In this document: positions 15,377 through 44,978 of the stretch, one piece after another | How the letters are laid out: each line of letters starts with the position of its first letter | Numbering within the stretch: position 1 is the first letter of the stretch | From: Primorskyibacter flagellatus | Lineage (GTDB): Bacteria; Pseudomonadota; Alphaproteobacteria; Rhodobacterales; Rhodobacteraceae | DNA: 64,000 bases | NCBI RefSeq assembly: GCF_014638275.1 | Contig: NZ_BMFJ01000001.1 | Span: forward strand, 1,786,338 to 1,850,337 | Reading direction: 5' to 3' | The notes under the pieces: model-generated | The model's input: only the letters and a program-made list of their open reading frames with translations | Told to the model about the DNA's origin: nothing | The model's database searches: none | Made by a program: the position numbers and the translations under genes

Positions 15377-15387
15377 TCAGATTGTCC

Positions 15388-25461: not shown

Positions 25462-25467
25462 GAGCGA

Positions 25468-25492: not shown

Positions 25493-25642
25493 CGCCCGAC
25501 ACCAAGCACCACACAAGGCGCCGGGGTTGTCCCCAGATAAGGACTTTTCCGGAATATCGCTTGCCGGATGCGATGACAATCCCGCGGGTTCGGTCTATCC
25601 CGGTTCCAACTGACCAGCCCAGCACCACAGAGAGGCAGACCC

Positions 25643-29543: not shown

Positions 29544-29544
29544 T

Positions 29545-30638: not shown

Positions 30639-31078
30639 TACGACTTCCCGCCGAAATCGAGCGGGGTGACGACGCCCTTCTTGGGCTCAGGCGCAGCCTC
30701 GGGCTGTTCCTCGGTGTCGCCCTGCCCCTCCGGCGCCTTGCCGTCGAACATGTCCTCCGACGACTGGCCGGTGATGTGGTTCTCCAACATCGGGATCGCC
30801 CGCTTGAGCGACCGGATGATGTCCATCGCCTTGTGCGCGCCGTCCTTCTTCGGCAGCTTCTTGAGGATCGACTTCGACCAGGAGAACGCCTGTGAGTTCA
30901 TCCCGGTCTTCTCGATGAATTCCTTGGTCTTGGCCGCGCTCTCGCCGGCGTCGGAGCCGCGCTCGTATTCTTCTTTGGCCCGCGCCTCGATCTGGTCGAT
31001 CAGCGCGTCGTGTTCGAACGTCGGGCCATCCATTGCTTCACGGACCTTCTGGCCCTCGCTTTTCTTGGGTTTCGCCAT
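30638..31078 (-). CDS. Replication-operon hypothetical protein
   Basis: This gene encodes 146 residues from ATG 31078 with AAGGA upstream. It is helical and strongly charged (IDQIEARAKEEYERG) with an acidic Pro/Glu/Gln tail. It is the first gene of the leftward replication operon, so it is probably the earliest made. No motif was recognised. Its stop overlaps the start of the HNH gene (TAATG). A terminator-like hairpin lies in its leader. Confidence 0.65.
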   Translation of the reverse strand: MAKPKKSEGQKVREAMDGPTFEHDALIDQIEARAKEEYERGSDAGESAAKTKEFIEKTGMNSQAFSWSKSILKKLPKKDGAHKAMDIIRSLKRAIPMLENHITGQSSEDMFDGKAPEGQGDTEEQPEAAPEPKKGVVTPLDFGGKS

Positions 31079-31093
31079 TGCTGTTCCTTCGGC

Positions 31094-31124
31094 AAAAAAG
31101 GGGCGGAGCACGAAGGCCCCGCCC
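31094..31124 (-). terminator. Leader terminator/attenuator of the replication operon
   Basis: On the minus strand GGGCGG and CCGCCC pair around a 12-base loop, and six Ts follow within two bases. It lies 16-46 bases upstream of the first replication gene, inside its leader, so transcripts entering the operon must pass it. This position suits antitermination or attenuation control. Confidence 0.65.
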
Positions 31125-31269
31125 TAGTTCAACAGGGAGGTTGGAGGCTTTGCAGGACACCCTGCCCCCGGTTCAGGTTGGTTGGCGCGAGGGACCGCGC
31201 CGCCCTGCAAATCTCTTGAAATACCCCGAGGATCCGATTGAATGCCCCTGCACAGATGGAGGGACGACG

Positions 31270-31461
31270 ATGTGGGATCGGATTGTTGAGGTTTTCGCCA
31301 TCTATGGGGCGTTGGTGCTGCTGTTCTACGTAGCAGCCAGTTTCACGCGAAGCGCACGCAACATTCGATCCGACTTCTTTGCGATTCTCACCGGCTGGAC
31401 CCTGATGACGTTTATCCTTGGGGCGATTTACGTGCTCATGGGACTGACCATCGCTTACTGA
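31270..31461 (+). CDS. Small membrane protein
   Basis: This gene encodes 63 residues with GGAGGGA upstream of ATG 31270. Two hydrophobic segments (VFAIYGALVLLFYVAASF and LTGWTLMTFILGAIYVLMG) predict two membrane helices with a short basic loop between them. It stands alone with the next gene between the replication and immunity regions and is transcribed opposite to replication. It may be a lysogenically expressed accessory gene, for example superinfection exclusion. A holin is an alternative. Confidence 0.65.
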   Translation: MWDRIVEVFAIYGALVLLFYVAASFTRSARNIRSDFFAILTGWTLMTFILGAIYVLMGLTIAY

Positions 31462-31473
31462 CAGGAGAGACAC

Positions 31474-31743
31474 ATGAGGCTCATCACCAGCTTTGCAATC
31501 GTGCTCAGCGGAACGGCCGCGCAACCACAAGACGCACGGCCCTTGCCGGAAACATTCTTTTCCGCTGGTGAAGAGCTTTGTGGTCACCTCATCGAAAGCG
31601 CAAAGATCAGCGAGTGTATGTATCGCCAGACCCTCTCGGTGTTGATCCTCAGGTGTGACCACAGCTTCCCGCTGCGTTACGACCTCCGCTTCAAGTGCTT
31701 CGATGAAGCGATCGCGCGATGGAGAGCGTTGCCAAAGGATTGA
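31474..31743 (+). CDS. Small secreted protein, hypothetical
   Basis: This gene encodes 89 residues, with ACAGGAGAGA before the start. The first 16-18 residues (MRLITSFAIVLSGTAA) look like a signal peptide; the mature part has four Cys residues, suggesting disulfides in the periplasm. It follows the small membrane protein by 12 bases, so the two form a pair. No family is recognised. Confidence 0.6.
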   Translation: MRLITSFAIVLSGTAAQPQDARPLPETFFSAGEELCGHLIESAKISECMYRQTLSVLILRCDHSFPLRYDLRFKCFDEAIARWRALPKD

Positions 31744-31849
31744 ATCCGAGCACATCCACGGCCTCACAGAAAAAAATAATTTGTTTTCGCCACTTGTGGA
31801 AAACGCAGCGCAAACACAGGTTTATGCTTGAGGCACCCTTCGAGCGACA

Positions 31850-32080
31850 TCAGTCAGCCCTCTCAGAACGGGCGGCGTCTGACGAAGGAGACGAACCATG
31901 ATCGACCCATGCGGAGACCGGGACATCACCATCGGTTTCGCGCTCAATCCGAACCATCAGATCGAAGCCTGGTCGCTTCGTTCCGCTCAGGATTTGGCTG
32001 AGGTATGCCGGAACGATACCGACTTTAGCTGCAAACGCGGACTTGCGACGTCCCGCGAGATACTTTTTCAGGGGTTCCAT
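31850..32080 (-). CDS. Cro/YdaS-like HTH regulator
   Basis: This gene encodes 76 residues from ATG 32080 (MEPLKKYLAGRRKSAFAAKV). The helix-turn-helix is FAAKVGIVPAYLSQILSG followed by KRPGFDLMVRIERETDG, close in pattern to YdaS/Cro proteins. TTG 32098 is an alternative start, but it lies inside the operator. It is divergent from the second regulator, with a 15-bp operator between them, the usual arrangement of a lysis-lysogeny switch. It may be either repressor or Cro. Confidence 0.8.
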   Translation of the reverse strand: MEPLKKYLAGRRKSAFAAKVGIVPAYLSQILSGTKRPGFDLMVRIERETDGDVPVSAWVDHGSSPSSDAARSERAD

Positions 32081-32090
32081 GCCCCGGAAT

Positions 32091-32105
32091 TTATCCAATA
32101 GATAA
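32091..32105. promoter_or_regulatory. Operator 1, TTATCCAATAGATAA
   Basis: A 15-bp imperfect palindrome with half-sites TTATC/GATAA and five central bases lies between the two divergent regulator genes. Two similar sites are found at 32621 and 32655. The third site differs from the reverse complement of this one by a single base. Confidence 0.8.
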
Positions 32106-32172
32106 CTTTATGCAAGCACAACTTTCCCATTCGCAAATACCGCCCACCCTGCCCGGCTGCTACGAGTTTTCC

Positions 32173-32481
32173 ATGCAGCTAAACTTGCGGATCAGGGACT
32201 TGAGGAAAGCCAAAGGCTTGAGCATCGCCGATCTGGCGGGCAAAGTCGGTGTATCCACACCCCATTTGTCTCAAGTGGAGCGCGGCCTAAAGAACCTCAA
32301 CAATCACTTGTTGGTTCGGATCGCGGCAGCACTAGAAGTTGAGCCTGACGCCCTTATCGCAAGTCAGAACCGTGAAGACATAGGCGATCTTTTGGACGCA
32401 GTTTCAGACCTTTCGGCGGAAGATGTAGAACGAGTGCGCCAGTTCGCTGATGCGTTGAGGCTCTCCCGCCCAGGCGAGTAG
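32173..32481 (+). CDS. XRE-family HTH regulator (prophage repressor or Cro)
   Basis: This gene encodes 102 residues if ATG 32173 is used (MQLNLRIRDLRKAKGLSIAD). An in-frame ATG at 32110 would add a 21-residue leader that does not look like the family and would begin five bases after the operator. The helix-turn-helix is LSIADLAGKVGVSTPHLSQVERG. A C-terminal helical part (residues 65-100) may dimerise. It lacks a LexA-like peptidase domain, so induction would not be by RecA-stimulated self-cleavage of this protein. Confidence 0.82.
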   Translation: MQLNLRIRDLRKAKGLSIADLAGKVGVSTPHLSQVERGLKNLNNHLLVRIAAALEVEPDALIASQNREDIGDLLDAVSDLSAEDVERVRQFADALRLSRPGE

Positions 32482-32571
32482 CGTAGCTCACAACTCGCCG
32501 CCTGTCGGATTCGTCCAGCTCCAAAAATATAGCTGTAAGACTCTCTTTTCTTTTCATCCACCGTACCCCCT

Positions 32572-32601
32572 TTGTTCACGCTAACGCGAAGCCTGTATAC
32601 T
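32572..32601 (+). promoter_or_regulatory. Candidate early rightward promoter
   Basis: TTGTTC (32572-32577), an 18-base spacer and TATACT (32596-32601) point toward the early operon. Operators 2 and 3 lie 20-70 bases downstream. A second candidate, TTGACG at 32644, would place its -10 on operator 3. Either way repressor binding would block early transcription. Confidence 0.45.
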
Positions 32602-32620
32602 GTCTAGCGTCAGGCATCGT

Positions 32621-32669
32621 TTATCCATTGGCTAAATTTTTGTTTGACGAACTTTTGTCTATTGGATAA
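32621..32669. promoter_or_regulatory. Operators 2 and 3 upstream of the early operon
   Basis: TTATCCATTGGCTAA (32621-32635) and TTGTCTATTGGATAA (32655-32669) match operator 1 in half-sites and centre. Their centres are 34 bases apart, about three turns of DNA, so they lie on the same face and could bind regulator cooperatively. Confidence 0.78.
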
Positions 32670-32728
32670 CTTTCCATCACCGCCGAAGACGCCGCCCGGC
32701 TGATCGCGGAAAACCGATGGAGTTGAAG

Positions 32729-32851
32729 ATGCCCACCTACATCCCGGACCCAGATGATTTCTGCCGGACCTGCAAGGGCCGCGGCTGGTTCGGCGCGGAT
32801 CGCTGCGACATGTGCGGCGGCTCCGGCCACAAAAGCGTGAGGGTGTGTTGA
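32729..32851 (+). CDS. DnaJ-type zinc finger mini-protein
   Basis: This gene encodes 40 residues from ATG 32729, preceded by GGAG at the right distance; ATG 32717 is in frame but lacks one. Two CxxC knuckles (CRTCKGRGW and CDMCGGSGH) reproduce one DnaJ-type zinc repeat. It is the first gene of the early rightward operon and overlaps the next by one base (TGATG). Such mini zinc proteins are common in early phage operons; the target is unknown. Confidence 0.72.
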   Translation: MPTYIPDPDDFCRTCKGRGWFGADRCDMCGGSGHKSVRVC

Positions 32852-33120
32852 TGCCCGTCATGGACTTCGCGGACGATCTGGCGGAGGCGCGCAAGGTGCT
32901 GCACCAGCAGTCCAGCCACCCGGTCAGTACCATCATCGACGCGGCGGAGGCGCTGTCGCTGTACTCGCCCGACAAGGCGGAACGCCTGATGGCCGGTACC
33001 GTCGTGAACGTGGCGAGGCGGTCTTCTGGCATCTGGTCGCAGCGTGAAGCCGCGAAATCCGTGGCCGCCTGCATCGCCATCGCGATCATCGTAATCGCTC
33101 TGCTTTCCCTCTCCGGATAG
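32851..33120 (+). CDS. Small protein with C-terminal membrane anchor
   Basis: This gene encodes 89 residues. A helical soluble part (FADDLAEARKVLHQQSSHPV) ends in one hydrophobic segment (AACIAIAIIVIALLSLSG) at the extreme C-terminus, a tail-anchor arrangement. The start ATG 32851 overlaps the preceding stop. Function unknown. Confidence 0.62.
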   Translation: MPVMDFADDLAEARKVLHQQSSHPVSTIIDAAEALSLYSPDKAERLMAGTVVNVARRSSGIWSQREAAKSVAACIAIAIIVIALLSLSG

Positions 33121-33142
33121 CGCGCTGCCTGTCGCGCTGTTC

Positions 33143-33255
33143 CCCCGGTCGGCACCGCCTATGCTCGCCCGCCGGCCGGGGTCGAAATACTCCCGCAACC
33201 CGTCCCGACCCTTGCGGGAGTAGAGCCGGGGCTTTGTCCCCAGATTGCCCCGGCT
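33143..33255 (+). ncRNA. Three consecutive stem-loops, candidate structured leader RNA
   Basis: In 113 bases between two early genes three inverted repeats follow one another: CCCCGG/CCGGGG (33143 and 33176), TACTCCCGCAA/TTGCGGGAGTA (33188 and 33212, 11 bp perfect, 13-base loop) and AGCCGGGG/CCCCGGCT (33224 and 33248, 8 bp perfect). No T-run follows and no gene fits. It could be a leader of the recombination genes or a small RNA. Confidence 0.5.
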
Positions 33256-33291
33256 CACCCATTCACACCTGACAGAAGATTGGAGGCCAAC

Positions 33292-33561
33292 ATGGCAAAA
33301 ACGGTTCAAGAGCACTTCGAGGAGTGCAAGCAGATCGACCAGATCGTCGATCAGGCGAATGCCCTTCTGACAAAGGTTCGCAACGAACTCGTGATCGCGC
33401 GCGCAGTTCTGGAAGCCCTGAGCGAATATCAGCACCCCAAGCTGGCAATGGCCGTGCCCTACCAGTTCCGGCAAGACCTGGGCGACAAGCACGTCACCCC
33501 TCGCACCGTCATCGACGCCGAGATCACCCGCATCAACGCGCTTCTGGGGGATCGGGCATGA
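33292..33561 (+). CDS. Early phage protein, helical, hypothetical
   Basis: This gene encodes 89 residues from ATG 33292, with TTGGAGG upstream. The first 55 residues form a probable coiled coil (FEECKQIDQIVDQANALLTK). It overlaps the next gene, also rich in coiled coil, by four bases. These genes precede exonuclease and RecT, so a link to recombination is inferred from context. Confidence 0.6.
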   Translation: MAKTVQEHFEECKQIDQIVDQANALLTKVRNELVIARAVLEALSEYQHPKLAMAVPYQFRQDLGDKHVTPRTVIDAEITRINALLGDRA

Positions 33562-34565
33562 CCACCACCGACATCATCGAGATCGACATCCCGCACAAGA
33601 CGGACGTACCCGCGCTGTTCGAAACTAAGGACGGGGTTCCCAATCTTGTCGCCAAGATCGAGAAGCAGGCGCGTTCGTTCGCCATCGACTACACGACCGA
33701 GGCGGGCCGCAAGGAAGCGAAGTCGCTGGCCGCCAAGGTTTCCCGCTCAAAGACGCTGATCGACGAGGTTGGCAAGGAACAGAACGAGGAGCGCAACCGG
33801 CTCAACAAGGAGGTCAACGCCCTCCGGAACCTCGCGACCTCGCGTCTCGATGCCCTCCGCGATGAGATCAAGGCGCCTGTCGTCGAATGGGAGAAGAAGG
33901 AGGCCGAGCGGGTCCGTCTTCACATGCTGGCCATGGATGCGTTCGATCTTGGGCGCGTGTCGTCCAACAACTCCTCGATCGACATTCAGGGGGTCATCAA
34001 TTCCATCCGCGACACCAAGATCGACGAGACGTGGGAGGAATACGAGGCCGACGCCAAAGCCGCCAAGGCCGAGGCGCTGGTCAAGTTTCAGGCCGATCTC
34101 GGGATCGCCCGCCAGCGCGAGGATCAGGAGAAGGAGCTCGAGGCCCTGCGCGCGGAGAAAGCGAAGCGCGAGGCCGAGGATGCCGAACGCGCCGAGAAGG
34201 AGGCCTCTGAGAAGGCCGAGCAGGAGCGCAAGGCCGAGGCCGAGCGCCAGTCCAAGGAAGCCGCTGCTGCTGCGGAAGCGAAGGCCAAGGCAGATGCGGA
34301 AGCCGCCGAGCGCCGCCACAAGGAGGAACTGGCAGCGGCACAGCGCCGCGCCGATGAGGCCGCAGCCGCCGAGCGCGCCCAGATCGAGGCCGAGAAGAAA
34401 GCCGAGGCCGAGGCCGAGGAGAAACGCCGGTCGGACAAGCTGCACCGGATGCAGATCACGACCGAGATCGTCGTCGCGATGAAGGCACTCAAGCCCGAGG
34501 GCTACGAGGACATCGTGGACGCCATGATCGACGGGAAAATCCCTCATGTGAAAGTGTCGCTCTGA
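33558..34565 (+). CDS. Coiled-coil protein of the recombination operon
   Basis: This gene encodes 335 residues. The first 110 residues are globular with helices (NLVAKIEKQARSFAIDYTTE). Residues about 165-290 are a long Ala/Glu/Lys coiled coil of TolA-like composition, and a small helical domain ends the protein (TTEIVVAMKALKPEGYED). Proteins of similar layout (for example DUF1351-type) precede RecT/exonuclease pairs in many phages. A role as a recombination or nuclease accessory is likely but unproven. Confidence 0.72.
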   Translation: MTTTDIIEIDIPHKTDVPALFETKDGVPNLVAKIEKQARSFAIDYTTEAGRKEAKSLAAKVSRSKTLIDEVGKEQNEERNRLNKEVNALRNLATSRLDALRDEIKAPVVEWEKKEAERVRLHMLAMDAFDLGRVSSNNSSIDIQGVINSIRDTKIDETWEEYEADAKAAKAEALVKFQADLGIARQREDQEKELEALRAEKAKREAEDAERAEKEASEKAEQERKAEAERQSKEAAAAAEAKAKADAEAAERRHKEELAAAQRRADEAAAAERAQIEAEKKAEAEAEEKRRSDKLHRMQITTEIVVAMKALKPEGYEDIVDAMIDGKIPHVKVSL

Positions 34566-34960
34566 TGAACCGTCGCTCGATCCTGCGCGGCATTCTCGCG
34601 TCCCCGATCATCGGCAAAAAGGTAGTGGAGGAAGGTGTGAAGGTGATGGCCTCGAACATGGCGTCCGGCGTATATGTCGGTTCAGAAGCTAGACCGGATG
34701 TAGATCCGGAATACCGCGATCCACTGCCGAAGTGGATGCGGTCGGCGTTGAGCGACTACGATCAGAAGCTGGACCGTCCGGGCTTCCAAGACCCACTGCC
34801 AGAAGTCCGACAGATGAAATCGTGGTCTGCGGTCTTCAAGCGCCACGTCACCTTTCAGATCATAGAGGAACGCCAAAAACTCCGTCGAGAGTTCTGGGAC
34901 TTTGACCACAGTGACCCGGTGGCGGTCCTGAAATTCCTCCGAGACAAGGGGGTGGTCTGA
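34565..34960 (+). CDS. Early phage protein, hypothetical
   Basis: This gene encodes 131 residues, overlapping its neighbours by one base at each end. The N-terminus (MNRRSILRGILASPIIGKK) resembles a twin-arginine-like or short signal sequence but may be a simple basic helix. The rest is charged, with Trp/Phe-rich helices. No family is recognised. Confidence 0.6.
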   Translation: MNRRSILRGILASPIIGKKVVEEGVKVMASNMASGVYVGSEARPDVDPEYRDPLPKWMRSALSDYDQKLDRPGFQDPLPEVRQMKSWSAVFKRHVTFQIIEERQKLRREFWDFDHSDPVAVLKFLRDKGVV

Positions 34961-35154
34961 TGATCCGCTTCGCATTCATCATCATCGTCGGATACGCCTG
35001 CGCCGCCATGGTATCGTCCCATGTGTCCATGGACCTCGCGCAGACCCACTGGTCGAGCCTCTGGACCTACTTCTGGTGGGTCATGGCTGCACCGCTGCTC
35101 TTAGGCCTATGGTTTGCGGTATCGGCAGCATTCATTGCGTGGTGGGCGCGATGA
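34960..35154 (+). CDS. Small membrane protein
   Basis: This gene encodes 64 residues with two hydrophobic segments (FAFIIIVGYACAAMV and VMAAPLLLGLWFAVSAAFIA). It overlaps the previous gene by one base and the exonuclease gene by four. A two-helix inner-membrane protein in an early operon may affect host envelope or exclusion; function unknown. Confidence 0.6.
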   Translation: MIRFAFIIIVGYACAAMVSSHVSMDLAQTHWSSLWTYFWWVMAAPLLLGLWFAVSAAFIAWWAR

Positions 35155-36119
35155 GCCACGAAATCCGCACCCTGGCTGACGACGAACAGATCACAGAGCC
35201 CGGATTTTACCGGATCAGCCTGGATCGCCACCACTCACAACCATGCGACGGCCCGAGTGTCACGTCCGGGGTTCTTCGGACCATGGAGAAAAAAGGCCCC
35301 TCCAAGGTCTGGGCCTACCACCAGTTGAACCCCAATCGGTTCGAGGAGAAGCGTTCGGATGCGCTTCGCATGGGCACCGCCATGGCCGCCTACATCGAGG
35401 GCGGATTGGCGGGGCTCGAGGCCGAATTCCAGATCCTGCCGGAGAACGCTCCGAGCAGGCCGACCGCCGCGCAGATAAACGCCTTGAAGGAGGGCCGTGA
35501 GACCGAGACTGCGCGGCGGTCCATCACCTTCTGGTCGAACGTCAGGAAGGATGGCCGCGAGATCGTCAGCCAAGGCGAATTCGACCTGCTGGCCGCAATG
35601 GGTGCCGCTCTCGCCGCCGACCCGGCCGCCGCAGCCGTTCTGGGCGGAGAGCCGGAGATCACCATGGCCGCGTTCGACGAGCGCACCGGCCTGTGGATGC
35701 TGGCCCGGCCCGATAACATGAACTTCGACGGCACCCTCAGCGACTACAAGAAGGTGAACACTCAGGGCAGGCCGTTCAATCAGACCCTGTGCAGCCACCG
35801 CACCGAAGACCACGAATACACGATGCAGATGGCTTTCGCCGCGGACGTGTTCGAGCGGTTGACCGGCATCTGGTCGGACCAGTGCGGTCTGGTGTTCCAG
35901 GAGGATGAGCCTCCGCACGATGTCATCCTTCTGCCGATCCCCGAGGAAGACCTCCGGATCGGGCAGTTTCTCAACCGTCAGGCGATGACCCGCTTCCGGG
36001 AGTGTCTGGACGCAAACCATTGGCCCGGCCCCGGCGAGGTCATCACCCCCTTTCACCGCAACCCAGAGCGCCGCGAAGCCTTGCTTGAGCGGATGCAAAC
36101 GGCAGGAGCCGCACCATGA
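35151..36119 (+). CDS. RecE/Cas4-type PD-(D/E)XK exonuclease
   Basis: This gene encodes 322 residues from ATG 35151. The central region has the pattern of DUF3799-like phage exonucleases: RSDALRMGTAMAAYIEGG, later ERTGLWMLARPDNMNFDG with a conserved-type Asp, then DYKKVNTQ providing the (D/E)xK lysine, and HEYTMQMAFAADVFE for the QxxxY-type end of the fold. It would resect double-stranded ends to give single strands for RecT, whose gene overlaps it by four bases. Confidence 0.85.
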   Translation: MSHEIRTLADDEQITEPGFYRISLDRHHSQPCDGPSVTSGVLRTMEKKGPSKVWAYHQLNPNRFEEKRSDALRMGTAMAAYIEGGLAGLEAEFQILPENAPSRPTAAQINALKEGRETETARRSITFWSNVRKDGREIVSQGEFDLLAAMGAALAADPAAAAVLGGEPEITMAAFDERTGLWMLARPDNMNFDGTLSDYKKVNTQGRPFNQTLCSHRTEDHEYTMQMAFAADVFERLTGIWSDQCGLVFQEDEPPHDVILLPIPEEDLRIGQFLNRQAMTRFRECLDANHWPGPGEVITPFHRNPERREALLERMQTAGAAP

Positions 36120-37066
36120 CAGAGCACCAAGAACGGGGCCCCGACCTGATCCTCCGCGAGAAGCGCCGGCAGGAACTTGGCGAGACCGAATTTCAATCCG
36201 GTTCGCAGGGTGGCGCCCTGATGCAGCCGCGGAACGGCCGCGAACTGATGGACATGGCCAACATGATGGCCGGATGTGGAACGATGGTCCGCGACTTCTA
36301 CCGCAACAGCCCCGGTGACTGCGCGGCGCTTATCATGATTTGCCAGCCCTACGGCTTCAACCCGTACCAGGTGAGCTGGAAGACGTACAAGGCCAGCAAG
36401 AACGCCGACGCGCCGGTGTCGTTCGAGGGACAGCTTGTCAACGCGATGGTCAACATGAGCGCGCCGGTCAAAGGCCGTCTGCGGTATCGGTTCGAGAAGG
36501 AAGGTACGCCTGATCTGACCTGCACCGTCAGCGGCATCGACCGGGAGACCGGCGAGGAGATCACCTACACGTCGCCGCCGCTCAAAGACATCCCGGTGAA
36601 GAACAGCCCGCTCTGGAAGGGCGATCCGCAGCAGCAGCTTGGCTACTACAGCGCGCGCGCATGGGCCCGCCGCCATTTCCCGGAACTCCTTCTTGGTGTC
36701 TACACCCGCGAGGAGATCGAGGAAGCCCCGATGCGGGATGTCAGCCAGAAGCCCGAGGCAACCGGCGGATGGGCGGACAAGGCCCGCGCCGCGCGAGGAC
36801 CGTCCAAGGAGCAAACCGAGGCGGACCAGATCGACGGGGTGAAGGACCGACACGCACCCGAGCCCGAGGACATCCCTGATGCGGAGGTGATCCCGGAATT
36901 CGACGAGGATGCCGTCGATCCGATGACCGACGAATACGACGAGGGGGTCACCGCCGCCAATCAGGATGCCCCGGAAACCGACTGCCCGCACGATCCCGGC
37001 ACCTTCGAGTGGAACAACTGGATCGGCGGCCACCGCTTCTGCACAGCGCAGAAGGAGGGTGAGTGA
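36116..37066 (+). CDS. recT: RecT family single-strand annealing protein
   Basis: This gene encodes 316 residues. The family core is seen in CAALIMICQPYGFNPYQV, VSFEGQLVNAMVNM and WKGDPQQQLGYYSARAWAR. The C-terminal 90 residues are acidic and probably disordered. It anneals complementary single strands made by the exonuclease encoded just upstream. Together they form a Red/RecET-type recombination pair for concatemer formation and repair. Confidence 0.93.
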   Translation: MTEHQERGPDLILREKRRQELGETEFQSGSQGGALMQPRNGRELMDMANMMAGCGTMVRDFYRNSPGDCAALIMICQPYGFNPYQVSWKTYKASKNADAPVSFEGQLVNAMVNMSAPVKGRLRYRFEKEGTPDLTCTVSGIDRETGEEITYTSPPLKDIPVKNSPLWKGDPQQQLGYYSARAWARRHFPELLLGVYTREEIEEAPMRDVSQKPEATGGWADKARAARGPSKEQTEADQIDGVKDRHAPEPEDIPDAEVIPEFDEDAVDPMTDEYDEGVTAANQDAPETDCPHDPGTFEWNNWIGGHRFCTAQKEGE

Positions 37067-37371
37067 TGGACGACGTTGAACTGGAAGATATGAAAAAGGC
37101 CTTGGATCAGGTCATCATCGACACCGTCTCAAGCATTCCCGACGAAACCGGCATACATCCGGTTTCAGTCTGGACTGCCACGATGTCGAGAGCCATGGGC
37201 GTCCTTCACAAAGTTTCCCCAGAAGGAACGATGCAAATCATCGGATGCGCTCTGGCACATATGAAGGGCGAAATCACTCTCGAAGAACTGTCCGAAAGGA
37301 ACGTGGCCGCTTTCAAGGTGGTCGCCGACGCCTGGATGGAATGGGAAACCAACGGGAGGACTATCCAATGA
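37066..37371 (+). CDS. Early phage protein, hypothetical
   Basis: This gene encodes 101 residues from ATG 37066, just after the RecT stop; a GTG three bases earlier is also possible. It is acidic and helical at the start (ELEDMKKALDQVIIDTVSSI). It overlaps the following gene by four bases. No motif recognised. Confidence 0.58.
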   Translation: MDDVELEDMKKALDQVIIDTVSSIPDETGIHPVSVWTATMSRAMGVLHKVSPEGTMQIIGCALAHMKGEITLEELSERNVAAFKVVADAWMEWETNGRTIQ

Positions 37372-37688
37372 CCGGCCCGTTCGAAGGAAAGAAGAACGTT
37401 TATCTGTGCCCTGACTGCGGCCACGGGTTCGTCACAATGGATAGCGTCGAAGGGGTGACGCCGTTCATGACGGGGTGCCTGAACTGCCAGAGCATGGCGC
37501 AGTCCCTGATGTATAAAATCCCGCAGCAGGTACTTGGAAACCCCGCTGTCTATTGGATCAGACCGCCGATGGACGAATGGGACAAGTACAGCGTCCACGT
37601 CCGGGATCACCTGTCACGCGGCGGGCTCATCAGAGATGACCATGGCGCCAAAGACATCAAGAAAAGAAAGCGGAGTGTCCGGCATTGA
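37368..37688 (+). CDS. Zinc-ribbon-like phage protein
   Basis: This gene encodes 106 residues. CPDCGHG near residues 14-20 and CLNCQ near 38-42 form a two-knuckle zinc-ribbon. The remainder includes PPMDEWDKYSVHVRDHLSRG and a Lys/Arg-rich end. The start at 37368 is fixed by a four-base overlap with the preceding stop. Nucleic-acid or protein binding is likely; target unknown. Confidence 0.65.
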   Translation: MTGPFEGKKNVYLCPDCGHGFVTMDSVEGVTPFMTGCLNCQSMAQSLMYKIPQQVLGNPAVYWIRPPMDEWDKYSVHVRDHLSRGGLIRDDHGAKDIKKRKRSVRH

Positions 37689-37981
37689 CCTTCATTACCC
37701 CAGAACTGGCGCGCACCACCTACGCCTGCCCCCTTGCCCGCGTTTTCGTGGAGAAGGTCGGCCCGAACTGTGACGCCAACCAGTGCATCATGTGGCGCTG
37801 GCAAGCCCTCAGCGCCGAAACCCTGAAACCTGCGGTCTCCGCCGAGATGAAGCGCATCGGCAAGGGTCCGGCCGGCCACAAGGAGGCCGTGGCGAACGTC
37901 ATGGCCGATCCCGAGTCTCATGGCGTCCAAATCGAGCCGACGCATGGCTACTGCGGACTGGCTGGAAAGCCGGAGGTCTGA
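37685..37981 (+). CDS. Early phage protein, hypothetical (TTG start)
   Basis: This gene encodes 98 residues. TTG 37685 overlaps the previous stop as TTGA, the only sensible start in this frame. Four Cys residues (YACPLARVF, NCDANQC) may bind metal. No family recognised. Confidence 0.55.
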   Translation: MTFITPELARTTYACPLARVFVEKVGPNCDANQCIMWRWQALSAETLKPAVSAEMKRIGKGPAGHKEAVANVMADPESHGVQIEPTHGYCGLAGKPEV

Positions 37982-37982
37982 G

Positions 37983-38369
37983 ATGGAAGCCTACCGCCCC
38001 CACATGAACGTCAAGATGAGGTCGGAGAAGGTCACCGATCACGCCAAGGGCCAGCCGTGCACCATCCGGATCGCGAGCTTCGTGCCTGGCCGGCAGTGTT
38101 CCGGGCAGGACACGACGGTCTTCACCCACTTCGGCGGACCCACGAAAGGAACCTCCACCAAGGTATCTGATTTCGATGGCGGTTTCGGGTGCGCGGTCTG
38201 CCATAGCATCATCGACGGGCCGGACAAGAAAGCCCGCGAATATCTGTTCGAGAGATACCCGGCCGCCGTGGAAAACCGGATGCGCCTCTCCGTCAGCGAG
38301 ACGCTTTCGATCCTGTTCCGCGACGGGATCATCACGGTCGACGGCGCCGAGATAGTAGGGAAACTCTGA
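37983..38369 (+). CDS. Putative HNH-like/nuclease-associated phage protein
   Basis: This gene encodes 128 residues from ATG 37983. The segment KGQPCTIRIASFVPGRQCSG, the later CAVCHSIIDGPDKK and C-terminal helices resemble NinB/DUF1364-type phage proteins, which carry paired Cys and are associated with HNH-like folds. The assignment is tentative; the position downstream of RecT fits recombination-linked genes. Confidence 0.55.
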   Translation: MEAYRPHMNVKMRSEKVTDHAKGQPCTIRIASFVPGRQCSGQDTTVFTHFGGPTKGTSTKVSDFDGGFGCAVCHSIIDGPDKKAREYLFERYPAAVENRMRLSVSETLSILFRDGIITVDGAEIVGKL

Positions 38370-38644
38370 TGGGGTCCGGCGTCTTCTACCACGAACAGGC
38401 CAGGTTCGATGGAGAGTGGATCTCCGTCAAGTGCAACGGCCGTCCGGAGACCAAGAAGATCAACGGTGTCCTGCGCCTGAAAAACTCTGACGGTCTGGGC
38501 CCCCGATTGCGTTTCGAACCGATCGAGGTCGCCCGCGGCCATGCCGACCTGTCACTGGACCAGCTCCGCCAGTGCTACTCGCCGGATGGGAAGTTTCGGG
38601 CGGCCACCCGTACACCCGAGGAGACCGACAATGACCAAGACTGA
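38369..38644 (+). CDS. Early phage protein, hypothetical
   Basis: This gene encodes 91 residues and overlaps the upstream gene by one base and the next by 14. It opens MGSGVFYHEQARFDGEWISV with beta-like alternation and ends with a polar tail. Function unknown. Confidence 0.55.
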   Translation: MGSGVFYHEQARFDGEWISVKCNGRPETKKINGVLRLKNSDGLGPRLRFEPIEVARGHADLSLDQLRQCYSPDGKFRAATRTPEETDNDQD

Positions 38645-39215
38645 CGCAGAGGCGGTGGGGTTGCTGCCGTGCCCGTTTTGCGGATCAAGTCGCGTACACG
38701 CAACCCATTCACCAACCTGCCACGCCGGGTGGGAATACTGCGTCGAATGCCTCAATTGTGGCACTGACGGTCCGTATGCCGGAAACGAATATAACGCCAT
38801 ATTCAAATGGAATGATGATCGCGCCGAACGTGACGCCCTGCAAGCCAAGCTGGATGCGCTGACGGCGGCCCTGCGGTGTGTTCGTGAGGAAATCTGCACT
38901 GGCCCTGTGGATGATGTTCTATGGCACCGTGAAATCCCGGCTGAAACCACAGTCGATTTCATATGCAACACGTTGAACGACGATTGGGACTACGACGACT
39001 GGTTGGCCAGACAGTCAACCGCCCTCACCCCCGCTCCGCAGACCTACGATGACGGGATACGGGAGGCTGTCGAGGCAGAGGAAAAGACGCTTCTACACTT
39101 CTGCAATCTGGTGAACGCAGGGGATGCCCAAGGCGGCGGCAGGGAGTTTCAACGCCAGATTGGTTTTGCGTTCGACCGTCTGAAATCCGCCCTCCTCAAG
39201 GAACCCAAGCCATGA
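38631..39215 (+). CDS. Lar-like zinc-ribbon protein
   Basis: This gene encodes 194 residues. The N-terminus LLPCPFCGSSRVHATHSPTC with a second knuckle CVECLNCGTDGPYAGN is the Lar family signature (restriction alleviation protein type), extended by a C-terminal helical part with EREALQ-like coiled region. Lar-type proteins relieve type I restriction in Rac prophage; many phage members are uncharacterised. A second protein of this type is encoded at 39743. Confidence 0.72.
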   Translation: MTKTDAEAVGLLPCPFCGSSRVHATHSPTCHAGWEYCVECLNCGTDGPYAGNEYNAIFKWNDDRAERDALQAKLDALTAALRCVREEICTGPVDDVLWHREIPAETTVDFICNTLNDDWDYDDWLARQSTALTPAPQTYDDGIREAVEAEEKTLLHFCNLVNAGDAQGGGREFQRQIGFAFDRLKSALLKEPKP

Positions 39216-39424
39216 CTAACAAACTGAAATTCATCACTGCTCACGGCGTCTGCGGACTGACCTGCGAATGGGACCCGACCTCGAATGGTTGCTCTTGGGA
39301 TGCAGAGGGCTGGCTGGACCATTTCGGGACGCGTATCGGCAGCGGAGCAGCGCCTCTACCCGATGGTTCCGGGTGGGTCGATCTGGCGCAGTTTGCCTCC
39401 GTTGTTCAGGAGTCCAAGCCATGA
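39212..39424 (+). CDS. Small phage protein, hypothetical
   Basis: This gene encodes 70 residues, overlapping both neighbours by four bases. It is Trp/Gly-rich (GLTCEWDPTSNGCSWDAEGW) with two Cys. No motif recognised. Confidence 0.52.
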   Translation: MTNKLKFITAHGVCGLTCEWDPTSNGCSWDAEGWLDHFGTRIGSGAAPLPDGSGWVDLAQFASVVQESKP

Positions 39425-39750
39425 CCCACGACCCGAAAACGCTGAGAGCGGCGGCGGAAGCTAGACCGGACGCCTATGCCGTTTATGGAGCGGATCGAAC
39501 TGACGCCTATGCGAAGGGCTATTGTGCTGGCGTAGAGGCTTATCGGAAGTCCATCCTCGCCCTTGCCGACACCCCGCCCGAGCCTGTGTCGGTGGAGGAT
39601 GCGGCGCGGGTGTTGAGATGCATCGAAGCGAACTGGCGCAAGCGTATGGGGTATCCGGACGGCTACGGTAACACGCTAAATATGAGTTCCGAATGGGCGC
39701 TAGGCGAACTTCGCGCCATCGCCGGAGACCAGGAGCCTCACCATGACTGA
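39421..39750 (+). CDS. Phage hypothetical protein
   Basis: This gene encodes 109 residues. It contains a run with DAYAKGYCAGVEAYRKSILA, a helix often seen in small phage proteins of early operons, followed by VEDAARVLRCIEANWRKR. It overlaps upstream by four and downstream by eight bases. Function unknown. Confidence 0.55.
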   Translation: MTHDPKTLRAAAEARPDAYAVYGADRTDAYAKGYCAGVEAYRKSILALADTPPEPVSVEDAARVLRCIEANWRKRMGYPDGYGNTLNMSSEWALGELRAIAGDQEPHHD

Positions 39751-40117
39751 CACCGCCGATCCGCAGCTTCTGCCTTGCCCGTTCTGTGGGGGTGAGGCGA
39801 GATACCAAGCGCAGCAGGGCGACAACACGAACCCTTATGCGTGGCACGTCATCCACCACTGCAAAACGCGCGGCTTCATCCGTATCGAGCCGATCAAATG
39901 GTACGGGAATAAGGAAGAGGTCGCTGCACTTTGGAACGCAAGGCCAGAGGTCGAGCGACTGAAAGACGGTATCACCCTGATCGAGCGAGCCTACTACATG
40001 GAGGGCAAGGGCAAAGAGACCCGCGCCTCCACCATGAACAGCATCGCCCGCGACCTTCAAGACGGCAAAGACCTTGCATGGGCGCGCCGACTGTTCCCGA
40101 GAGGAGAGGCCCTATGA
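39743..40117 (+). CDS. Lar-like zinc-ribbon protein
   Basis: This gene encodes 124 residues. LLPCPFCGGEARYQ at residues 8-21 and the following WHVIHHCKTRGFIR, then EEVAALWNARPEVERLKDG, are the hallmarks of Lar-like phage proteins (first zinc knuckle, His/Cys second knuckle, and the ALWNxR box). It may modulate restriction or other host defence; no direct evidence beyond family. Confidence 0.75.
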   Translation: MTDTADPQLLPCPFCGGEARYQAQQGDNTNPYAWHVIHHCKTRGFIRIEPIKWYGNKEEVAALWNARPEVERLKDGITLIERAYYMEGKGKETRASTMNSIARDLQDGKDLAWARRLFPRGEAL

Positions 40118-40296
40118 CTATCACGCTCTACTGGTGGATGCTTCCCTTGGCGATCACCATCATCGCCTTCATTCCAGCATCCCTTCATCAGCAACGCGGC
40201 GATTACGATTTCGGCGGGGCCATTTTGGGCTTCATCGGACTGGTCGCAACCGCTGTCGCTTGGATCGTTGCTATCATCATGAGGCTGGCTCAATGA
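40114..40296 (+). CDS. Small membrane protein
   Basis: This gene encodes 60 residues with two hydrophobic segments (WWMLPLAITIIAFIPASL and AILGFIGLVATAVAWIVAII). It overlaps both neighbours by four bases. It is the third tiny membrane protein in the early operon; function unknown. Confidence 0.58.
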   Translation: MTITLYWWMLPLAITIIAFIPASLHQQRGDYDFGGAILGFIGLVATAVAWIVAIIMRLAQ

Positions 40297-40553
40297 CTGA
40301 CACCACCGTCCGTGTCGATCCACTGCCGACCTTAGCTCGCGAATGGTCGGCGCTTGGGTTCGACAATGACCGCAAACAGCTTCGGTTCAATGAGATCGTG
40401 GAAACCGCCAAGACGTTTTACAACGACCCGGCTGAGGGCGTGAAGGAGATGATCGAGGCGTGTGACAAGAACAGCCCGCTCTACGTCAAGGGTCGCCCAA
40501 TGTGGCAGGTTCTCCGAGAGGAATATGGGTGGATGCTCGATCATGACGACTGA
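40293..40553 (+). CDS. Small phage protein, hypothetical
   Basis: This gene encodes 86 residues from ATG 40293, overlapping the previous stop. The body is helical and charged (FNEIVETAKTFYNDPAEGVK) and ends WMLDHDD. It overlaps the next gene by 11 bases. No motif recognised. Confidence 0.52.
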   Translation: MTDTTVRVDPLPTLAREWSALGFDNDRKQLRFNEIVETAKTFYNDPAEGVKEMIEACDKNSPLYVKGRPMWQVLREEYGWMLDHDD

Positions 40554-40893
40554 CACCGCCGCACTGGACGCGCTGATAGAGGCTGTGGAGGCGGGCGGTT
40601 ACGTCTCATTCGACATGACCGATCCTGTGGCCGCGAAAATGTTCAAGGGCTGTACCTTCGTAGATGCGGGCCTGCTTAACAAGGCCTGCCAAGGCGACGA
40701 CATGAACGCCGCCCTTGAGCTGTTTAAGGCGCTACTACCGAGGTGGAAATGGGTCATCGCCTCTGACGGTTCAGTCGTTTTGACGGGACCGAAGGACCAA
40801 TCCGTTATCGTGGCTAGGCGATTCAATCTACTCCCTGTCCGCGCCTTCCTTCTGGCCACCCTGCGGGCGTATCGGGCGGAGGTGGCGGGATGA
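40543..40893 (+). CDS. Phage hypothetical protein
   Basis: This gene encodes 116 residues. It starts MTTDTAALDALIEAVEAGGY, a start common among small alphaproteobacterial phage proteins of this operon type, and ends with a basic helix (RAFLLATLRAYRAEVAG). Four-base overlap with the next gene. Function unknown. Confidence 0.55.
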   Translation: MTTDTAALDALIEAVEAGGYVSFDMTDPVAAKMFKGCTFVDAGLLNKACQGDDMNAALELFKALLPRWKWVIASDGSVVLTGPKDQSVIVARRFNLLPVRAFLLATLRAYRAEVAG

Positions 40894-41153
40894 GCCGGAT
40901 GGAGAGTTTTCCGTGTGCCTGCGCCTTTGCGAAAAGCGTTAACGACCGCAGCCCATTCAATTTCCCGCGCATCGGAATGGCAGACACTGTGCTGTATCGA
41001 GGCTACTGGATCAACCGCCATACGACAACTGGCCGAACCGCCGTAATCATGCGGATCGGTGAAGGCCCTCTGCACCCAGAGGCGAGACAGTGTTGTTTCG
41101 AATGGTTTGACCAGAAAGCCCGCCCCACCAACAGCCCGGAGAGGGAGGAGTAG
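40890..41153 (+). CDS. Small phage protein, hypothetical
   Basis: This gene encodes 87 residues. The second half (TVLYRGYWINRHTTTGRTAV) is beta-patterned and the first half Cys-rich. It overlaps the preceding stop (ATGA) and ends four bases before the HAD phosphatase gene. Function unknown. Confidence 0.52.
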   Translation: MSRMESFPCACAFAKSVNDRSPFNFPRIGMADTVLYRGYWINRHTTTGRTAVIMRIGEGPLHPEARQCCFEWFDQKARPTNSPEREE

Positions 41154-41156
41154 ACC

Positions 41157-41585
41157 ATGATAGTATTCGATCTGGACGGCACACTGGCTGACCCCAAGTT
41201 CCGGGAACACTATGTTCGCAGGCCTGTGGGGCAGAAAGATTGGGACCGCTTCCACGCAGAGGCTGCAAGAGATTTGCCAAAAGCGTGGATCGTGAGGGCG
41301 TACCTTGCGTTTGAAGCCACCGGGCATGAAGTCCAAATCTGGACGGGGCGCGATGAGAAGTACCGCCAGTCAACCCTAGAGTGGTTGGCCAAGCAGGGCA
41401 TCCACTCCCCGGAACTCAAGATGCGCCAGACTGGCGACCATACACCTGACGATGAAATGAAATCGGCATGGGCGGATGAGGCGGATCGCCATGTGCAACT
41501 AGTCTTCGAGGACCGTCAGCGGGTCGTTGATATGTGGCGGTCGCGAGGCGTGACGTGCTGCCAAGTTGCCCCCGGTGATTTCTGA
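41157..41585 (+). CDS. HAD-type phosphatase, PNKP-like
   Basis: This gene encodes 142 residues. FDLDGTLAD at residues 4-12 is HAD motif I with the nucleophile Asp and acid/base Asp. IWTGRDEKY near 61-69 is motif II, and VFEDRQRVVDMWRSRG near 118-133 the motif IV region. The arrangement is like the phosphatase domain of polynucleotide kinase/phosphatase, without a kinase domain. It could remove 3'-phosphates from DNA or RNA, including cleaved tRNA, or hydrolyse nucleotides. It is encoded near the integrase end. Confidence 0.78.
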   Translation: MIVFDLDGTLADPKFREHYVRRPVGQKDWDRFHAEAARDLPKAWIVRAYLAFEATGHEVQIWTGRDEKYRQSTLEWLAKQGIHSPELKMRQTGDHTPDDEMKSAWADEADRHVQLVFEDRQRVVDMWRSRGVTCCQVAPGDF

Positions 41586-41824
41586 TGACCCGCCCCGACC
41601 CCTACGCCCGCAAGCGCGCCATGAAGCGTCAAATCCAGATCGTCGGCTATCAGTGGATCGGCAGAGGTCGGGAGAAGCGGCTCTACGGCCCCGATCACGC
41701 CGTCCTCAGCAAGATGAACCGTTTCGGCAAGCTGTTGACGGCAGCAAACGAACAGGCCGCACGAATGTCAGGTAACCGTCGCCTTTACCGCAACCACAAG
41801 ACCCCCGCCGGATCGCAGGAGTAG
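41585..41824 (+). CDS. Small basic phage protein
   Basis: This gene encodes 79 residues with a high content of Arg/Lys (RPDPYARKRAMKRQIQIVGY). It overlaps the HAD gene by one base and ends four bases before the next start. Possibly nucleic-acid binding; no family. Confidence 0.55.
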   Translation: MTRPDPYARKRAMKRQIQIVGYQWIGRGREKRLYGPDHAVLSKMNRFGKLLTAANEQAARMSGNRRLYRNHKTPAGSQE

Positions 41825-41827
41825 ACC

Positions 41828-42070
41828 ATGGGAGCGCACGTCACGCCGCTGTTCATCAAGGAGGAGGATGTAGCCAAGCTGCTAGGCCACAACATCACCT
41901 GGCTCCGGCAGCGTGCGGCTCTGCTGGAAGAAAGCTACGGCCTTCCCAAGATAGACCCGGCGACCCAACTCAGGCATCGTGAGGCGGTCGAGGTCTGGGC
42001 GAGGAAGCGAAACATCCGTCACGCCGAAGACCTCGCTGGCAAAAGAGGAGTGAACTTCGATGCAATATGA
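41828..42070 (+). CDS. Excisionase-like HTH protein, putative
   Basis: This gene encodes 80 residues. LFIKEEDVAKLLGHNITWLR is a winged/MerR-like helix-turn-helix start as in excisionases and AlpA-type proteins, followed by a short basic part. It directly precedes the integrase and overlaps it by 11 bases. Recombination directionality factors are commonly encoded here, so it is the best xis candidate in the window. Confidence 0.62.
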   Translation: MGAHVTPLFIKEEDVAKLLGHNITWLRQRAALLEESYGLPKIDPATQLRHREAVEVWARKRNIRHAEDLAGKRGVNFDAI

Positions 42071-43247
42071 GCCGTCCCTATGGGACGATAGCGACCCCGG
42101 ATACGCGCCGGGGATGAAGCACCGGAAGGACAGGGGAACCTACTTCTGGACCCCGCCGAAGAAGTACAAGGAAGCGGGATACATCATCAAGACCGTCCCT
42201 CTGGATCAATCCTCGCATGAGGCGCGCGCCGCCAAGTGCCGGGAGCTCACCCGCGAGATGCTGGAATGGTACAAGGGCCAGACTGCCGGCCGCCAGGCGG
42301 GGACATGGGGCTACGTCATCGGCCGCTATCTCGCCGACGATTTCAGCGCGATCTGGGATGTCCGCCCGCAGACCAGAGCCGACTACCGGAAGGAACTCGG
42401 TCTGGTGGAGGCCGTGATCGGCGATGTCCGGGTTCTCGACACCGACTACGAGATGCTGGCGACCATCAAGAAGGCGATGGAGACCAAGGGACGATCGACA
42501 CACTACATCAAGAAGTGGTTCACCCATTTCAGACTGGCGGTTTCCCATGGGATCAAGATCGGCGAGCCGGGGTGCCGGGAGGTCAAGGCGGTCAGGTCGG
42601 AGATGCGGATCAAGAACCCGCCGCGGCGCTCCAAATTCATCACCTTCGAGCAGGTCGACAAGATCGTCGCGGAGGCCGACGCCCGCGGATGGCACCAGCT
42701 ATCCCTGTCTGTCCTGATCCGGTTCGAGTACATGCTTCGCGGAGTCGATGTCTACGGGGACTGGTCGCCGGCGGAGAACCGCGAGGGCGGCATCAGGCAT
42801 GGCGATCTCCTCTGGGATGGCGGGCTCACCTGGGAGATGTTCGACAAGGACATCACGCAGTTCGAGAAGGTCATCAGCAAGACCCGCGACAGCCTGCCCG
42901 AGCCCTACGTGTTCGCGCTGATCCCTTCGATCAGAGAGCGCCTGCTGAGGATCCCCGAGGATCAGCGGATTGGCCCGGTCATCGTGATGGAGGACGGTCT
43001 CCCGCCGCGCTACGGCCGCATGTCCCACCAGTTCCGGAGGGTCAGGCACCACCTCAAACTCCCGGACTACCTACAGATCAGGGACACCCGATCCGGCGGC
43101 ATCACAGAAGCCAAGCAGATGGTCGACGGGTTCGCGCTCAGGGATGCGGCGCAGCACACCCAGATCACGACCACCGACACATACGTTAGAGGTCGGTCGG
43201 AGACCGCAAACAACGTCGTCCAGATGCGGCAGAAAGCGAGGAAGTGA
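42060..43247 (+). CDS. int: Tyrosine integrase
   Basis: This gene encodes 395 residues, the normal length of lambda-type integrases. An N-terminal arm-binding region and core-binding domain (about 1-190) precede the catalytic domain. The Arg I box is near 227 (EYMLRGVD), the box II region reads IRDTRSGGITEA near 340, and TDTYVRG places the nucleophile Tyr at 375. The His of the usual HxxR in box II appears replaced by Asp in this reading. The gene ends 20 bases before a tRNA-Leu and its presumed attachment site. Confidence 0.92.
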   Translation: MQYEPSLWDDSDPGYAPGMKHRKDRGTYFWTPPKKYKEAGYIIKTVPLDQSSHEARAAKCRELTREMLEWYKGQTAGRQAGTWGYVIGRYLADDFSAIWDVRPQTRADYRKELGLVEAVIGDVRVLDTDYEMLATIKKAMETKGRSTHYIKKWFTHFRLAVSHGIKIGEPGCREVKAVRSEMRIKNPPRRSKFITFEQVDKIVAEADARGWHQLSLSVLIRFEYMLRGVDVYGDWSPAENREGGIRHGDLLWDGGLTWEMFDKDITQFEKVISKTRDSLPEPYVFALIPSIRERLLRIPEDQRIGPVIVMEDGLPPRYGRMSHQFRRVRHHLKLPDYLQIRDTRSGGITEAKQMVDGFALRDAAQHTQITTTDTYVRGRSETANNVVQMRQKARK

Positions 43248-43266
43248 TGTACCTCGATGTACATCA

Positions 43267-43350
43267 TGGTACGGACGGCGGGACTCGAACCCGCACTCCA
43301 GGGGAAGGCGATTTTAAGTCGCCCGCGTCTACCGATTCCGCCACGTCCGC
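43267..43350 (-). tRNA. tRNA-Leu (anticodon UAA), complete
   Basis: A full class II tRNA folds on the minus strand: acceptor GCGGACG with CGTCCGT, D-stem GCG/CGC, anticodon stem GGCGA/TCGCC around loop CTTAAAA (anticodon TAA), a short variable arm, T-arm GCGGG-TTCGAGT-CCCGC and encoded CCA. The first pair is G1-U72, a wobble. It lies between the integrase and three arm-like repeats, apparently inside the prophage. Confidence 0.93.
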
Positions 43351-43359
43351 GAACAAGAC

Positions 43360-43388
43360 GAGTACCGCGTGAGTACCCGATGAGTACC
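43360..43388. repeat. Three GAGTACC direct repeats, 11-base period
   Basis: GAGTACC occurs at 43360-43366, 43371-43377 and 43382-43388, exactly 11 bases apart. Tandem sites one helical turn apart next to an integrase gene and a tRNA-type core are typical of arm-type integrase binding sites. Confidence 0.85.
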
Positions 43389-43436
43389 GCTTTCAGAAAT
43401 TTCCTTTTCCACCAATAGCATGGACCACATGCCAAC

Positions 43437-43478
43437 GGGATTTTAAGTCCCCTGTGTCTACCATTCCACCACGCGGGC
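43437..43478 (-). pseudogene. 5' part of a second tRNA-Leu(UAA); presumed prophage junction
   Basis: The minus strand gives an acceptor 5' strand GCCCGCG, a D-arm with GTG/CAC, and an anticodon arm GGGGA-CTTAAAA-TCCC. The sequence then departs from a tRNA: the next base breaks the anticodon stem and there is no T-arm or acceptor 3' strand within 90 bases. It shares the 11-mer GACTTAAAATC with the complete tRNA nearby. It is best read as the host tRNA cut by prophage integration in the anticodon loop. Confidence 0.75.
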
Positions 43479-44237: not shown

Positions 44238-44978
44238 ATGTTTCCGTTGCGCGATCACAACCCCTCAGGGCGACGGCCCTATGTCACCTGGCTGCTGATC
44301 GTGGTCAATGTGGCGGTCTTCATCTCCTACGCCGGGATGGATCCACGGGCGCTGGATGCCTTCTTCGACAACTACGCCCTGTTCCCGGCGCGGGTAACGT
44401 CGGGGGAGGGCTTTGGCGGCATCCTCACGTCCATGTTCCTGCACGGCGGATTCATGCACATTGCCGGCAACATGCTGTTCCTGTGGATTTTCGGCGACAA
44501 CATGGAGGACAAGCTCGGCCATCTCGGATTCCTGGGCTTCTACCTCGCGTCCGGAGTTGCGGCAGCGGTTGCGCAGATCCTGGCGGACCCGTCCTCCGGT
44601 GTGCCGATGGTCGGCGCTTCGGGGGCCATCGCGGGAGTGATGGGGGGCTACCTGCTGCTCTTCCCGAAGGCGCGGGTCGATATCCTGTTCATCTTCATCG
44701 TGTTCTTCAAGGTCTTCCCGGTCCCGGCCTGGGTGATGCTCGGCATCTGGTTCGGGCTGCAGTTCTTCAGCGGTCTCACCGCCGACCTGACGGCGGGCGG
44801 GGTGGCCTACTGGGCGCATGCGGGCGGGTTCATCGCCGGCTTCCTGCTGACGGTACCGGTGTTCCGGCGGCTCGGTGGGACGGCGTTCTGGAACCGCACA
44901 CACGGACATCCGGACCATCCGCCGGCGCAGTACCAGTTCTCCCGATCCAACGTGCCAACCGTGAGACGCCGCCGATGA
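44238..44978 (+). CDS. Rhomboid family intramembrane serine protease
   Basis: This gene encodes 246 residues with six or more membrane segments. GASGAIAG places the catalytic Ser at 128 and YWAHAGGF the His at 194. FLHGGFMHIAGNMLFLWIFG carries the HxxxN oxyanion motif. Rhomboids cleave membrane proteins within the bilayer. The ATG at 44238 starts MFPLRDHNPS, the usual beginning in Rhodobacterales. It overlaps the GFA gene by four bases. Confidence 0.92.
   Translation: MFPLRDHNPSGRRPYVTWLLIVVNVAVFISYAGMDPRALDAFFDNYALFPARVTSGEGFGGILTSMFLHGGFMHIAGNMLFLWIFGDNMEDKLGHLGFLGFYLASGVAAAVAQILADPSSGVPMVGASGAIAGVMGGYLLLFPKARVDILFIFIVFFKVFPVPAWVMLGIWFGLQFFSGLTADLTAGGVAYWAHAGGFIAGFLLTVPVFRRLGGTAFWNRTHGHPDHPPAQYQFSRSNVPTVRRRR

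Follow-up and report, generated by a model that had tools for sequence, protein, structure and literature searches.

Temperate phages that integrate into a host tRNA gene without restoring it, and that bring a tRNA of their own, have been described under the name of tRNA-dependent lysogeny in mycobacteriophages and other actinobacteriophages (mBio 2024, PMC10865867). According to the passages of that paper on attachment sites, the core shared by phage and host is about 10 bp, which is too short to rebuild the host tRNA. The same source, where it discusses origins, calls the relation of rebuilding to substituting systems unclear and states that the prevalence beyond actinobacteriophages needs further work. 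A substitution of tRNA-Leu(UAG) is reported for S. meliloti in the relevant parts of PMC11476347 and is taken up again in PMC12429752. A survey of 173 Rhodobacteraceae prophages lists tRNA-Leu among the integration sites, in passages that do not mention substitution (PMC8224337). Here we analyze a window of 64,000 nucleotides (C1:1786338-1850337) from a 4.6-Mb genome in 10 contigs, which very probably holds most of a temperate phage that practises tRNA-dependent lysogeny and carries a substitute for the tRNA-Leu(UAA) gene that it splits.

The only tRNA reported by ARAGORN in the window is a complete tRNA-Leu(UAA) located inside the prophage (Table 1). A second tRNA-Leu(UAA) is represented by its 5' half, which starts at 43478 and loses all resemblance to a tRNA past the core. 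The left end of the prophage lies 6.7 kb to the left of the window. In a search of the region C1:1770000-1789999, ACTTAAAATCCC was found again at C1:1779630-1779641, followed by TAGGCC...CGCGGGTACCA, the missing 3' half. When the host flanks were joined in silico, ARAGORN recognized a complete 84-nt tRNA-Leu(UAA), and it found no tRNA across attL, attR or the joined phage ends (attP). Since two pieces that are 50.1 kb apart and have 12 bp in common join to a canonical 84-nt tRNA-Leu(UAA), chance is excluded in practice, and by this reconstruction a 50.1-kb element is inserted in the anticodon loop of the chromosomal gene. Two hallmarks of ordinary integration were also considered. There is no complete target tRNA rebuilt at a junction, and the sequence common to attL and attR is 12 bp instead of a long direct repeat over the tRNA 3' half. 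With 12 bp in common, integration cannot rebuild the host tRNA-Leu(UAA), and since attP lacks the 3' half, the host gene is, as read from the sequence, split and lost. Two candidates were rejected in the course of this analysis: a T-stem and acceptor pattern, used at first to locate the 3' half, matched only what resembles a coding stretch (L047), and a core-like match at window position 750 has neither a tRNA half before or after it nor an ARAGORN tRNA.

The prophage encodes a tyrosine integrase (P0001), which has no match in Pfam and whose stop codon is located 19 bp before the complete tRNA. The order of elements is integrase, complete tRNA, arm-type repeats and core, and 48 bp without tRNA resemblance separate the repeats from the host 5' half. 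By this arrangement the substitute tRNA, placed between the integrase and the arm sites, travels inside the integration module. Its score against the Rfam tRNA model is the highest among the six tRNA-Leu genes identified, and its identity is 75.6% to the rejoined host gene and 80.5% to a further copy on contig C3. The sequence GACTTAAAATC occurs three times in the genome, namely in both tRNAs of the window and once on C3. In addition to the phage genes in Table 1, the prophage has proteins with Pfam or PHROG matches to DnaB and to the RecT family. The initial annotation, made from the window sequence, had proposed the complete tRNA-Leu(UAA), the three arm-like repeats, the truncated second tRNA and the sequence shared by the two, an anticodon segment as the phage core, the destruction of the host gene and a full replacement brought by the phage; it had also placed the missing 3' part at the left prophage end. 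All of these were recovered. In the mechanism that we propose, the integrase would act on the anticodon loop of the chromosomal tRNA-Leu(UAA), recombining it with the attP core of 12 bp, and the phage tRNA would putatively supply UUA decoding in the lysogen.

Table 1. Features of the prophage, the split tRNA locus and the island discussed in the text (window positions unless a contig is given)
Feature	Position	Strand	Remarks
Prophage, right 43.4 kb of 50.1 kb	1..43448	.	attL C1:1779630, attR C1:1829785
Major head protein	14348..15376	-	PHROG 212
Head-tail connector (podovirus-like)	16386..17906	-	PF12236, PHROG 332
Terminase large subunit	18486..20006	-	PHROG 2
Tyrosine integrase P0001, 395 aa	42060..43247	+	PHROG 1 integrase, E=1.1e-10
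Complete phage-borne tRNA-Leu(UAA), putative substitute	43267..43350	-	ARAGORN; Rfam tRNA 59.1 bits
Three GAGTACC arm-type repeats, 11-bp spacing	43360..43388	+	starts 43360, 43371, 43382
attR core ACTTAAAATCCC	43437..43448	-	identical to attL core, C1:1779630-1779641, outside the window
Split chromosomal tRNA-Leu(UAA), 5' half including core	43437..43478	-	complete tRNA when joined to the 3' half
Host flank gene, rhomboid-like	44238..44978	+	marks the locus in relatives; tblastn 59-80% identity
G266 island, 14.76 kb	G266:C5:14821-29580 (L242, L245)		splits tRNA-Leu(UAA)
G151 junction	G151:C22 around 8432-8568 (L240, L243)		same left junction as G266

To describe the empty site, we used 21 other genomes of the same genus, from 16 of which the locus was taken as picked by search matches (G396, G397, G404, G412 and G413 were left out). 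As the initial annotation had expected of relatives, an intact tRNA-Leu(UAA) is present in all 16 loci. The rhomboid-like flank gene, which may encode a rhomboid, was found by tblastn in 14 of them, at less than 0.5 kb from the tRNA in 12 loci, at 1.3 kb in G410 and at 4.7 kb in G399. Both immediate flanks are kept in G192 and G411, with the rhomboid-like gene on one side and the left flank Lf1 on the other; the right-flank query R1 was left out of the flank comparison.

UUA codons are rare, as had been noted from the start: a rough count, in which some host-side frames are wrong or overlapping and which shows rarity only, gave 3 of 5439 codons in 12 hand-picked host-side ORFs and 2 of 7182 codons in 13 phage ORFs. 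The accompanying suggestion that the tRNA may be the only reader of UUA has to be given up. An intact tRNA-Leu(UAA) elsewhere, named in the initial annotation as evidence against its own reading, is present on contig C3 (235,794 bp), where it stands beside a tRNA-Met (C3:31087-31246; L012, L053). Contig C3 carries a RepA of the repABC type, above the family cut-off, and is therefore probably a plasmid. G406 matches the region of its tRNA with 99.8% identity over 11.5 kb, suggesting that this region probably moves between strains; G395 has part of it, and the same type of tRNA-Met and tRNA-Leu(UAA) pair is also found in other strains of the genus (L115, L116, L117). Because of the intact C3 gene, the source strain may survive without the chromosomal one. 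The picture of an essential host tRNA disrupted with no other copy thus does not fit this genome, a departure that concerns the strain and not the phage. If the C3 copy works, it would make the phage tRNA dispensable here, but not in relatives that lack such a copy.

On this second gene, and on its probable mobility, rests the alternative that nothing depends on the phage copy: the lysogen would use the C3 tRNA-Leu(UAA), and the complete tRNA would be either a passenger or what is left of an ordinary integration that took place earlier in a different host. We regard this alternative as improbable. The phage copy outscores the C3 copy (59.1 vs 53.1 bits with the Rfam tRNA model), and the latter has an A-C mismatch in the T stem by hand reading. 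Furthermore, a strict tRNA-Leu(UAA) pattern detects exactly one copy in 17 of the 21 other genus genomes (including the 66% complete G412, whose single match is a C3-type copy interrupted by about 1.3 kb), two copies in two genomes and none in two (G408 and G410, where ARAGORN finds the gene), so that a phage without a substitute would meet few tolerant hosts.

Relatives of the integrase P0001 were identified in 10 of 394 family genomes and 8 of 22 genus genomes (its own genome being counted in both), at two genome_contigs loci and on 26 viral contigs. Two of them have named records (Rhodobacteraceae bacterium and Pelagimonas), which makes it probable that the host belongs to this family, and no Mesorhizobium phage is present among the four phage records that match P0001. 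In 18 of 23 relative loci the integrase is followed by arm-like repeats (by eye) and then by a complete tRNA, which is specific for Leu, His, Arg, Thr or Pro. The other five loci comprise one with no tRNA (L060), two with a 3' half only (L061, L070) and two that end at the integrase (L068, L069); outside the 23 loci, G407 has broken integrase pieces beside a tRNA-His (L176, L178). The tRNA of L066 is a tRNA-Leu(UAA), and its contig (L131) has the rhomboid-like gene 4.8 kb away. A displaced 3' fragment was observed at the far end in four of seven relatives, with 38-50 bp identical to the rebuilt gene as compared with 12 bp in the window, and none was seen in the fetched stretch of the other three (G401, G234, G405:C42). 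Compared with these relatives, the window has lost the 3' half, and its full tRNA has the opposite position with respect to the arms. At L060 (G245:C173) the integrase relative has arm-like repeats, and neither a tRNA nor a tRNA half was seen at the junction, which is perhaps a secondary attachment site; L067, another integrase copy of this genome, is accompanied by a complete tRNA-Leu(CAA).

Since the relatives have a complete tRNA at nearly the same place after the integrase, the window might be taken for an ordinary rebuilding integration that was misread because a rebuilt tRNA and a stray core stand close together. This reading is refuted by the 3' half at the far end, which pairs with the host acceptor stem; in addition, the acceptor stems of the complete tRNA (GCGGACG) and of the host half (GCCCGCG) differ, and the host 5' half lies free, 86 bp further out. 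An assembly chimera, which might be imagined for a genome assembled in 10 contigs, has a similarly negligible probability, as both junctions are on a single contig of 2.87 Mb and yield a perfect gene when joined, and the tRNA is intact in 16 of 16 same-genus loci.

For the preferred reading, a phage that substitutes the tRNA it splits, a tree of 26 integrases was built by maximum likelihood, from which the partial relatives L065 and L066 were excluded. The window integrase falls inside a clade of ten sequences (support 100/99) that also includes five rebuilding members and four of unknown mode, and its sister is L058 (tRNA-Arg) with a support of only 90/92. As the window integrase is nested among rebuilding relatives, substitution looks derived. 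The tree, in which a single substituting member decides the direction of change, favours a single derivation of substitution from rebuilding in the lineage of the window integrase, and the system would have arisen from an ordinary integrase with an attP that contained the tRNA 3' half. Among 25 viral integrase loci, viewed up to 420 bp past the match (7 of them are cut within 50 bp of it), none was seen by eye to combine a complete tRNA with a core standing separately from it; ARAGORN finds a complete tRNA in one (L229, tRNA-His), where the sequence after the integrase is that of L064.

The scan of 394 family genomes returned two genomes, G151 and G266, besides that of the window. G266 belongs to another genus, and its tRNA-Leu(UAA), located 4.9 kb from the rhomboid-like gene, is split by an island with 12 bp in common between the junctions (by eye); when the flanks are joined, the result is a complete tRNA. 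The island carries a complete tRNA-Leu(UAA) that differs from that of the host at three nucleotides (positions 29, 41 and 50). Its integrase gene lies at the other end, and it also encodes a primase-polymerase, a D5-type helicase-like protein and a HEPN-like protein whose match falls just short of the Pfam cut-off. A scan of eight island proteins revealed no phage structural protein, and the island integrase has no significant BLASTP match with P0001 (best E=2.0). By its likeness to P4-type elements, the island is putatively satellite-like. In G151, the left junction adjoins two TIR-domain proteins, and the contig ends before the right junction. The junction sequence was found in these two genomes only, among 275 genomes. 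A different kind of mobile island within the same family seems to use the same tRNA-replacing trick.

According to a broader idea, tRNA replacement would not be peculiar to phages: any integrase that acts on an anticodon loop could make this switch, which would have recurred, and paired substitutions in the anticodon stem would keep the carried tRNA from being used as attB. As a whole, we find this idea doubtful. The sequences support its first half, as substitution at tRNA-Leu(UAA) is seen in this family both in a phage and in an island that has its own primase and an integrase unrelated to that of the phage. The stem pair 29-41, which is G-C in the host, is C-G in the phage copy and A-U in the copy of the G266 island, and such paired changes would keep the tRNA fold and alter the core sites of the integrase. 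Self-immunity has no statistical support: position 29 differs from the core or host half in five of eight cases (by eye), as compared with 56% expected at random from 43 host tRNAs in 46 fetched loci.

We also scanned for further cases. A scan of IMG/VR for paired ACTTAAAATC gave 35 stretches, which by eye are mostly chance matches in A+T-rich sequence, tRNA arrays and repeats. Five contigs were kept as candidates (L162, L163, L135 with L168, L148 and L153), and in each a free core or host 5' half lies near a complete tRNA-Leu(UAA) (near 5193-5342 in L162 and at 115-260 in L163), with repeats between core and tRNA in four of the five (by eye). A Pfam integrase domain was detected in L135, L148 and L153, and in none of the four proteins scanned from L162 and L163; L153 is the only candidate in which integrase, tRNA and core are arranged as in the window. 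A second scan (18 stretches) added no case, and neither 398 phylum genomes nor 385 class genomes, when scanned by pattern, gave a further one, an extra phylum match (G789) being two complete tRNAs.

Two additional observations were made on related sequences. In four IMG/VR contigs (L150, L157, L165, L167), a complete tRNA-Leu(UAA) is followed about 80 bp further on by the conserved ATAGACTTAAAATC, with TGTGTC repeats in between and an order reversed with respect to the window. The record NZ_CP155757.1 (L191), deposited as a Sphingomonas plasmid, has cmk, rpsA and IHF-beta genes beside a tRNA-Leu-like stretch that shares 90% identity with the phage copy across 91 bases and is adjoined by a site-specific integrase; this record may be a chromosomal piece.

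These results may matter in several ways. With a substituting integrase nested among rebuilding relatives whose tRNA targets differ, the direction of change becomes testable. The same anatomy in an island with its own primase suggests that the strategy may apply to integrative elements in general. For genome annotation, such prophages look like breakers of a core tRNA, and they would make a mobile element the carrier of a possibly essential gene.

By its anatomy, the window prophage is of the tRNA-dependent lysogeny type, a kind already described: a tyrosine integrase next to attP, a short core in a host tRNA and a phage tRNA of the same isotype are all present. For this isotype and this host group, we found no earlier description of substitution among the matches listed, whose titles and abstract beginnings mention neither a Rhodobacteraceae nor a tRNA-Leu(UAA) case, although this does not establish absence. 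Lactobacillus johnsonii belongs to another phylum than the host of the window. Its prophage Lj965 is said, in the discussion of PMC10865867, to leave the tRNA unrebuilt and to encode a cognate one. Islander-type islands and prophages (PMC4383910) share with the window prophage the tRNA target, the tyrosine integrase and the displaced fragment at the far end; in contrast to the window prophage, they restore the tRNA gene. The S. meliloti case, in the parts of PMC11476347 that describe it, likewise concerns Alphaproteobacteria and a tRNA-Leu gene that is struck in its central part and inactivated; there the prophage supplies a tRNA-Leu closer to that of another genus, and the target is Leu(UAG) instead of Leu(UAA). 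The closest likeness in the relevant sections of PMC10865867 is to Fionnbharth, Cluster L phages and Gaia, with a tyrosine integrase, a host tRNA target that is not reconstructed and a phage tRNA of the same isotype. The core of 12 bp falls within the range of 8-17 bp in the published substituting phages, and the tRNA-Leu(CAA) of Gaia is located downstream of int (PMC10865867). Unlike the actinobacteriophages treated in these sections, the window prophage is podovirus-like, resides in an alphaproteobacterial host with a backup tRNA in the strain, is known from sequence alone, and carries a tRNA-Leu(UAA) placed between int and the arms.
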